Program-made: the position numbers and the translations under genes
Source: Sphaerochaeta sp.
GTDB lineage: Bacteria; Spirochaetota; Spirochaetia; Sphaerochaetales; Sphaerochaetaceae
DNA length: 42,236 nucleotides
Reading direction: 5' to 3'
NCBI GenBank assembly: GCA_018399495.1
Contig: JAGYOG010000023.1
Location: 1-42,236, forward strand
In this document: one piece after another, positions 40,955 to 42,236 of the stretch
How the letters are laid out: each line of letters starts with the position of its first letter
How positions within the stretch are numbered: the first letter of the stretch is position 1
Notes under the pieces: model-generated
The model's input: the letters and a program-made list of their open reading frames with translations, nothing else
Told to the model about the DNA's origin: nothing
Database searches by the model: none

Positions 40955-41959
40955 ATGGCTGTTACAATTAGAGATATCGCAAAAGAAGCAGGAGTATCCA
41001 GAGGTACCGTCGATCGGGTTCTCCATAACCGCAAAGGGGTGAATGAAGCGGTTGCCAAACGAGTACAGGCTATCGCTGATGATATGGGATTCACCCCAAA
41101 TCTTGCAGGAAAAGTACTTGCAAGAAGAAAACAACCGCTGAGAATTGGATGTCTTTTGCCCAGTATTGGGAACCCATTCTTTGATGATGTCATCGCAGGA
41201 TTTCGTCAAGCAGAACGTGAATTGAGTGACTTCGGAGTAATCCTTGACATAACCCAGATCAAATCATTCGACCTCGATGTACACCTAAAAGAACTCAAGC
41301 ATCTGGAAGCAAAACACTATGATGGAGTATGCGTAACAACCCTTGATGTCCAACCAGTAATGAATGCTATAGACAGGATTGCTGAAAGCGGTACCACTGT
41401 GGTGACAGTTAACACTGACATAGGCAGTTCGCACCGTCTCTTTTATGTGGGACCTGACTACTATCTGGAAGGTAAAACGGCGAGTGGACTCTTGCAGTTA
41501 TGTGGGAAAACACAAAAACGTATTCTCATCGTTACCGGTTCCTTCAACATGAAAGGCCACCAGGAGCGTATCAGGGGATTCATTGAAGGGTTAGAAGAAC
41601 ATAGGGCAGACTATATTGTGGTGGACACAGTAGAGAGTCTTGATGATGACACCATCGGCTATGAGCGAACCCGTACCTGCCTGGAACAGCATGAAGATAT
41701 CAACTGCATCTATCTGACTGCTGCTGGTGTGCACGGAGCATGTCAGGCGGTCAAGGACCTTGGCAGGCAGAATTCGCTTAGAGTATTCAGTTTTGATGAT
41801 GTTCCAATAACCAGGTCGCTGGTAAAAGAAGGGATCATAACGTTCACCCTCTGCCAGCAACCTAAGAGGCAGGGCTATGATGCCATACAGAAGCTGTTCA
41901 ACCACTTGATGAACCAGCAGGACCCCATAGTAGTTGATATGATTCCCTTACAAGGATAG
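40955..41959 (+). CDS. LacI-family transcriptional regulator
   Basis: A 334-residue repressor. The N-terminal helix-turn-helix reads T-I-R-D-I-A-K-E-A-G-V-S-R-G-T-V-D-R-V-L, with a hinge near residue 50-60. A periplasmic-binding-protein-like effector domain follows (I-G-C-L-L-P-S-I-G-N-P-F-F, V-N-T-D, Y-V-G-P-D-Y, G-S-F-N-M-K-G-H-Q-E-R-I-R-G-F). AAAGGA lies before the ATG. It probably regulated the sugar permease genes upstream. The C-terminus stops at D-M-I-P-L-Q-G; relatives usually continue for about eight more residues ending in E-N-[IL], so the last codons may have been replaced by the inserted DNA that follows. Confidence 0.9.
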   Translation: MAVTIRDIAKEAGVSRGTVDRVLHNRKGVNEAVAKRVQAIADDMGFTPNLAGKVLARRKQPLRIGCLLPSIGNPFFDDVIAGFRQAERELSDFGVILDITQIKSFDLDVHLKELKHLEAKHYDGVCVTTLDVQPVMNAIDRIAESGTTVVTVNTDIGSSHRLFYVGPDYYLEGKTASGLLQLCGKTQKRILIVTGSFNMKGHQERIRGFIEGLEEHRADYIVVDTVESLDDDTIGYERTRTCLEQHEDINCIYLTAAGVHGACQAVKDLGRQNSLRVFSFDDVPITRSLVKEGIITFTLCQQPKRQGYDAIQKLFNHLMNQQDPIVVDMIPLQG

Positions 41960-41984
41960 CAGAATGCAGTTATTTGATGTACTC

Positions 41985-42190
41985 TGTCCTGACGGGGGCG
42001 GAGGGCCGGCGGTTACGGTGAAAGTGTCTTAGGAATGGTTATCCCATATCCTTTTAGTAGTTTATCGAACCACACACCGGCCGTCGAACATCAAAATGGG
42101 AGACGCTGCTTGTATGTTTCACTGCTTGCAGCGTCATCCCGATTAGAAGCGTGACTGATCATCGAATGACCGCCATCCGGCCCCTAGTTT
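41985..42190 (+). ncRNA. Structured RNA, HEARO/omega-RNA-like candidate
   Basis: No ORF, but strong secondary structure. A terminal stem pairs 41994-42006 with 42172-42184 (11 of 13 positions paired, two mismatches at 41998/42180 and 42003/42175). Inside it, a second long stem pairs 42098-42109 with 42128-42140 (12 pairs with one bulged A at 42136). A third pairs 42016-42020 with 42075-42079, flanked by 42010-42012 with 42081-42083. The third stem encloses a further TGGTT/AACCA helix. The RNA ends about 18 bases before an ATG with AGGAGG. A multibranched GC-rich RNA of about 200 bases abutting an ORF is the layout of HEARO (omega-RNA) with IscB nucleases; a cis-regulatory leader is the alternative. 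The name is inference; the fold is seen in the sequence. Confidence 0.6.
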
Positions 42191-42208
42191 ACTACAACAG
42201 GAGGGGTT

Positions 42209-42236
42209 ATGGAAGAGAACGGAACTCATATCAGTT
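42209..42236 (+). CDS. Start of an ORF cut by the window edge, possible IscB-like protein
   Basis: Only nine codons (M-E-E-N-G-T-H-I-S) are visible. The start is convincing because AGGAGG (42199-42204) lies four bases before the ATG. Its position right after the structured RNA suggests an RNA-associated nuclease such as IscB, but nine residues cannot identify a family. Confidence 0.5.

Follow-up and report, generated by a model that had tools for sequence, protein, structure and literature searches.

A putative bridge RNA from an insertion sequence of the IS110 family at the 3′ end of a lacI gene in Sphaerochaeta

The locus and the ends of the element

The window, the whole stretch of 42,236 nucleotides analyzed here, is one entire contig (G000:C16). 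A lacI frame (40955–41959) lies near its right end. It is followed by a structured RNA and by an open reading frame that is cut after 28 bases because the contig ends there (Table 1). At Rfam gathering scores, the sole match in the whole window is one tRNA.

Table 1. Features of the element and its target in the window
Feature	Position	Strand	Basis
Left target, host lacI CCCCATAGT, adjoining the element	41923..41931	+	Orthologous lacI genes continue past it
Putative AG core dinucleotide of target and element ends	41932..41933	+	Other copies, empty sites
lacI frame, 3′ tail contributed by the element, VDMIPLQG and stop (last nine codons)	41933..41959	+	Present in element copies, not in orthologous lacI
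Left subterminal inverted repeat TATGATTCCC	41938..41947	+	Partner GGGAATCATA at the right ends of L039, L028 and L026
5′ stem-loop of the bridge RNA	41982..42003	+	Folding
Target-binding stem-loop	42004..42082	+	Stems conserved, loop sides hypervariable
Right target guide in the 5′ target-loop side (AG-ACACTTTCA in reverse complement)	42019..42029	+	Match to lacI of G003; permutations of four copies
Target loop, 10-nt sides	42021–42030 and 42053–42062	+	Alignment, fold
Left target guide UUUUAGU-AG, in the 3′ target-loop side	42052..42060	+	Follows its own left flank, n = 7
Putative donor-binding stem-loop	42083..42155	+	Four compensatory pairs, apical stem
Candidate right donor guide AUCAA, complement of the element left end TTGAT	42090..42094	+	Inspection, segment invariant
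Candidate left donor guide UAGAAG, as in the end junction TAGA-AG	42144..42149	+	Inspection, segment invariant
Shine-Dalgarno sequence AGGAGG	42199..42204	+	Read from the sequence
Transposase gene start, MEENGTHIS..., ATG at 42209, cut by the contig end	42209..42236	+	Position; MEE start as in the 441-aa transposase of full copies

Orthologues of this lacI are present in 17 other genomes of the genus, and 11 of them were examined. All 11 continue past the junction, with 16 residues beyond it (DTITQTIIKIRENIEE in the genome G003), and the 3′ end of lacI in the window is therefore element sequence. The initial annotation had proposed a comparison with genomes lacking the insert. In that comparison, the uninterrupted orthologues place the left junction at 41931–41933, inside the lacI frame, and not at 41960–41985, the segment that had been taken for a guide or host flank. 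Similarity between copies starts at 41930–41931. The insertion site is close to the end of lacI, with the lacI sequence ACACCATCACC as the expected right flank.

The dinucleotide AG is seen at the left end of all 12 copies, and also in three empty sites for the copies L026 and L028. At the core position, TG is found instead of AG in the six lacI orthologues closest to the window gene. A synonymous difference, GTT to GTA, could explain the TG, and AG is the putative core of the window copy. Another candidate core, YA before GTTGA, was dropped, as AG fits both ends as well as the empty sites for L026 and L028.

The empty sites have the structure of left target, AG, and right target (LT-AG-RT). 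They are found in G004 for the copy of G007 (L026; a match in one of four loci), and in G017 and G001 for the copy of G011 (L028). For L028, the right side can be seen in seven loci; four of these were checked on the left, and the two just named matched. For L032, three of five loci continue across the junction, one of the three with the AG core. Because the empty sites assign the left two bases to the target, the terminal extensions are 8 bp in total, which can be divided into 5+3, 6+2, or 4+4. The canonical 7+3 extensions of IS1111 are ruled out by the same assignment.

The left ends (n = 12) have AG-TTGATATGATTCCC in common, with small variations. The right end GGGAATCATAGA-AG is seen in three of the four full copies, the copy of G020 being without it. 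TATGATTCCC and GGGAATCATA constitute a 10-bp subterminal inverted repeat, also in three of the four. If the ends are joined, the sequence TTGACG-17-TATGAT is generated in 3/3 complete copies; TATGAT is derived from TATGATTCCC and is a putative −10 box. The circle-junction sequence predicted from the joined ends is CATAGAAGTTGATATG.

The RNA and its putative guide sequences

The RNA was originally described as highly structured and located upstream of an open reading frame, and this description is confirmed. The segment 41980–42212 folds at −89 kcal/mol, while dinucleotide shuffles give −69.9 (sd 4.2), corresponding to a z score of −4.53, and 0/200 shuffles are as low. Five full RNA copies from four genomes can be aligned with a common fold. 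It was first depicted as three nested long-range helices, a fair simplification of what is a 5′ hairpin and two stem-loop domains with an outer helix. A structured RNA with two internal loops in a non-coding end, as known for the IS110 family, is therefore present.

For the covariation test, a 40-pair structure was specified, in which each of two stem-loops has a symmetric internal loop of 10 nt. Among the five copies, 96.5% of its cells are standard pairs, and compensatory changes are seen at six of the 40 pairs. The structure has a covariation score of 0.135, compared with 0.033–0.058 with the partners slid. The number of further pair types (8) shows no excess over the shuffle mean (9.4), and the covariation term of RNAalifold is slightly unfavourable (+0.52). 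RNAalifold adds four pairs within the second loop, which is left open in the 40-pair structure. It also predicts the outer helix, 41960–41979 with 42160–42179, which encloses the 5′ hairpin and both domains and cannot form in full in the copy L039. The single-sequence fold of the window RNA has a different base for the second domain.

The variable columns of the five-copy alignment are both sides of the first loop, together with some isolated positions and the hairpin loops. In the first loop, the 3′ side follows the left flank of its own copy. Over five positions preceding the core, the number of matches is 23 versus a mean of 12.7 (p = 0.0032, all permutations, n = 7), and an alternative register gives 28 versus 18.0 (p = 0.0034, n = 7). 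This test includes seven of the 12 left ends, as L034, L035a, L035b, L036, and L038 have no target loop. In a scan of 352 RNA windows, in both directions and with three lengths, the left-guide segment ranks 1–3; windows that were gapped or had fewer than three variants were skipped, and the left-flank windows outside the target loop have n = 5. CAG instead of TAG is seen only in L026, in both the RNA and the flank. The left flank is matched poorly in L031, a damaged copy (2/5), and in L039 (3/5, with the invariant core A counted).

The 5′ side of the loop was compared with the reversed right flank. Among the 24 permutations, the pairing of each copy with its own flank ranks first at 6, 8, 9, 10, and 12 positions, where p = 0.042 is the floor (1/24) for n = 4; at 7 positions, p is 0.17. 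L027 has no right repeat and L031 and L032 have no right flank, and these three were left out. Some non-guide windows also hit the floor of 1/24 in the right-flank scan of 290 windows. For the window copy, whose own right flank is unassembled, 7 of the 9 nucleotides after the core match ACACCATCA in the lacI orthologue of the relative G003. The first loop is accordingly complementary to both strands of the target, as in the IS110 family, the right guide being deduced from four copies. The guides thus appear to sit in the internal loops of the RNA, instead of in 41960–41985. The candidate donor guides in the second loop were recognized by inspection only, because these segments do not vary.

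The transposase, its copies, and related elements

The same genome carries a second copy on the contig C29, 84% identical over 41930–42219, in which a 441-aa frame comes after the RNA. The C29 protein contains DEDD_Tnp_IS110 (PF01548, 45 bits) and Transposase_20 (PF02371, 80 bits), and no other Pfam family, including HNH, is found at E ≤ 1. It matches the NCBIfam model NF033542 "IS110 family RNA-guided transposase" with 205 bits (cut-off 140). Among PDB chains searched by sequence, only ISCro4 (9t56) and IS621 (8wt6) are found at E ≤ 0.1. D45, E91, D129, and D132 correspond to the four acidic residues that characterize the family, and S305 to its serine. The DEDD RuvC-like domain, Transposase_20, and the catalytic serine of IS110-family proteins are hence all seen in this sister copy; the window copy shows the first nine codons. 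The window frame starts with MEEN and the four full copies with MEE. The proteins of the other three full copies are 74–75% identical to the C29 protein. The transposase of the window copy could be broken beyond the contig end. Residues 167–319 of the protein P0001 give a sub-threshold NCBIfam match to a TIGR-Tas RNA-guided endonuclease (40 bits, cut-off 100).

A copy of the transposase is present in 4 of 26 genomes of the genus (protein search, E ≤ 1e-100). The search of the phylum at 1e-50 finds it in 2/392 genomes, both in the genus. The DNA search among relatives is positive in 11/100 genomes of four genera, and the search with the RNA model across the family in 7/139 genomes of three genera. 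Scans revealed two loci in genome contigs, the same as those of G007 and G020, none in viral contigs, and no new copies. The phylum, DNA, and RNA-model searches suggest that the range of the element is narrow.

Several relics are also found. At L033 (2900–3084, in G029), there is a relic of the bridge RNA with 65 bits to the RNA model R1 and with additional bases at the apex of the target stem-loop; no transposase is seen near it among ORFs of at least 120 aa. L034 and L038 (in G003 and G016) are relics of the left end only, with 67 and 49 aligned bases followed by unrelated DNA. At the ends of G044:C57 and C19 (L035 and L036), three contig ends fall inside the first 61–62 bases of the element. 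The contig breaks at L035 and L036 are as expected for an unresolved multi-copy element.

R1 was built from the five copies only, with ISLin1 left out. It finds a match directly 5′ of the transposase of ISLin1 from Leptospira interrogans, with E-values of 8e-5 (54 kb searched) and 1.9e-5 in another search. Weak matches are also located near two further IS110-type genes in the same genome as the window, at or just 5′ of the gene starts: L075 (2274–2420, − strand; 0.0027) and L076 (137–210; 0.017). The genome of the window may therefore hold three types of one bridge-RNA lineage, as judged from these similarities. R1 gives no match in L079, a near relative of L076, and in 13 other loci containing IS110-family genes it likewise has no hit at E ≤ 10.

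ISLin1 resembles the window element in several respects. Their transposases fall in one clade (98/97, in the tree without IS621), the upstream RNA has the same two-loop layout and guide order, and TATGAT is in the left end, with TTGACA in the right end of ISLin1. The 3′ side of the ISLin1 loop, UUUCAUAGAU, matches the flank GATTCATAGA at 8 nt, and the 5′ side, reversed, AGAGAGCG, matches AGAGAGCG of the target at 8 nt. Between the ISLin1 copies L088 and L074, the same two bases differ in guide and flank, both of which read CCGTAGA in L088. Natural re-aiming is known in ISMch6 (PMC11187229). In the copy L089, the first guide is retained, with one mismatch to the left flank and a poor fit to the right flank. 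The differences are that the ISLin1 protein, of 357 aa, is 33% identical over 77% of the sister protein, that the target is a short repeat, and that the subterminal repeat is imperfect (about 10/11 by eye, no exact one of at least 9 by script). On the Leptospira plasmid NZ_CP092665.1 (L074, 290–3180), two ISLin1 copies are in tandem with one short target repeat unit between them, and the transposase of the first copy is unannotated.

Proposed position between IS110 and IS1111

According to PMC11187229, subterminal repeats are a feature of IS1111 elements, which usually carry the RNA downstream of the gene and have the top-strand complement as their first guide. IS110 elements usually have the RNA upstream with the reverse guide order, although the RNA location has exceptions such as ISMtsp17 (PMC11187229). 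In IS621, for example, the left target guide LTG (50–58) precedes the right target guide RTG (77–80) (PMC11208158). The location of the RNA is described as a close predictor of the IS110/IS1111 relationship, and the RNA is proposed to have switched ends (PMC11208160).

The window element combines the two. The subterminal repeat of 10 bp is in the range of the IS1111 group (7–17 bp), and the top-strand complement comes before the bottom-strand match, as also in ISLin1. The RNA is, however, upstream of the gene in 4/4 full copies and in ISLin1, rather than downstream as in IS1111, and the extensions of 8 bp in total are not the 7 (or 6) + 3 bp of that group. The likeness to ISEc11, ISPa11, and ISKpn4 of the IS1111 group thus covers the repeat range, the guide order, and the absence of target duplication past the shared core, while these elements differ in the downstream RNA, the 7+3 or 6+3 extensions, and the size of the protein (330–350 aa, versus 441 aa here). 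With IS621 and the IS110 group, the element shares the 5′ stem-loop, a target-binding and a putative donor-binding loop, the RNA in the left end, DEDD and serine, and a putative promoter at the end junction. The target guides of IS621 are in the opposite order and its core is CT, versus the putative AG here; the long subterminal repeats of the window element are a further difference. ISMtsp17, of the IS1111 family, likewise has an upstream non-coding region but is the lone exception of its own cluster, and can be likened to the window element by its description in PMC11187229.

In the transposase tree without IS621, the spirochaete proteins form a clade (98/97). When IS621 and three more rows are added, IS621 falls inside this clade (84/93, with long branches) and the protein of Thiospirochaeta (L101) falls outside. 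Efs_L095, a long branch, was left out of the second tree.

The initial annotation considered the RNA a HEARO, or omega-RNA, upstream of IscB. A compact structured RNA immediately 5′ of an ORF in a mobile element would be in keeping with it. Against it, the covariance search of 41900–42236 finds neither HEARO nor any other Rfam family at E ≤ 10, and the sister RNA precedes an IS110-family transposase, with 74–75% identical relatives encoded by the three other full copies. That reading is rejected on these two grounds and has a negligible probability. The kind of element that had been proposed, apparently an RNA-guided mobile element in a spirochaete with a structured RNA before a protein gene, stands, while its family was misassigned; the likely activity is RNA-guided recombination instead of that of a nuclease. 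Another idea is that the RNA is a cis-regulatory leader, which serves transposase expression and has no guide role. The RNA lies directly before the Shine-Dalgarno sequence and would share a transcript with the gene. The two target-loop sides, however, are among the variable columns and follow the insertion sites, which makes a leader of this type highly improbable. A leader role could exist alongside the guide role.

It can be concluded with high confidence that the RNA in the window represents the bridge RNA (seekRNA) of an insertion sequence in the IS110 family, for which no name was found. Its position between branches can be stated with lower confidence than its IS110-family identity. An ordinary IS110-group element, similar to IS621 and with the ends and guide order of that group, is rather unlikely. 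The upstream RNA and the protein of 441 aa are typical of the IS110 side (PMC11187229), but the guide order, top-strand complement and then bottom-strand match, is that of IS1111 (PMC11187229, PMC11208158), and the 10-bp subterminal repeats are IS1111-like. It is somewhat more probable than not that the window element, ISLin1, and perhaps the two other types belong to a spirochaete lineage with the guide order and repeats of the IS1111 type and with the bridge RNA in the left end. With respect to the proposed move of the bridge RNA between ends, such a lineage would be an intermediate that has survived, or it would have been re-shuffled independently. The literature search for Sphaerochaeta and IS110 found no paper. 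ISLin1 is absent from the main text of PMC11187229 and PMC11208160, whose supplements may hold ISLin1 or the window element.

By analogy with IS621, ISEc11, and ISEc21, its transcription, protein binding, donor guides, and recombination chemistry can be proposed as follows. The element begins at 41932, and its right part would lie past the contig end. It would be excised as a circle, in which the right and left ends are joined to generate the promoter TTGACG-17-TATGAT. Such junction promoters are known for ISEc11 and ISEc21 (PMC11187229) and for IS621 (PMC11208158). A transcript from this promoter would cover the RNA as well as the downstream transposase gene. The two sides of the first loop would pair with different strands of the target, the 5′ side with the top strand to the right of the AG core and the 3′ side with the bottom strand to its left. 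The end junction of the element itself would be paired by the second loop. Target and donor would then be recombined at the core by the DEDD/serine transposase, here at the 3′ end of lacI.

For annotation, the 3′ end of lacI in the window genome comes from the element. What is of interest is how the features are combined, and not that the RNA exists. Bridge RNAs can be programmed to guide DNA recombination, and naturally re-aimed copies, of both the window element type and ISLin1, reveal which loop positions change with the target. If the placement proposed here is true, the guide order and the RNA location are separable. An IS1111 order with an IS110 location would break the link between RNA location and branch, and this lineage would be a place to test the move of the RNA.
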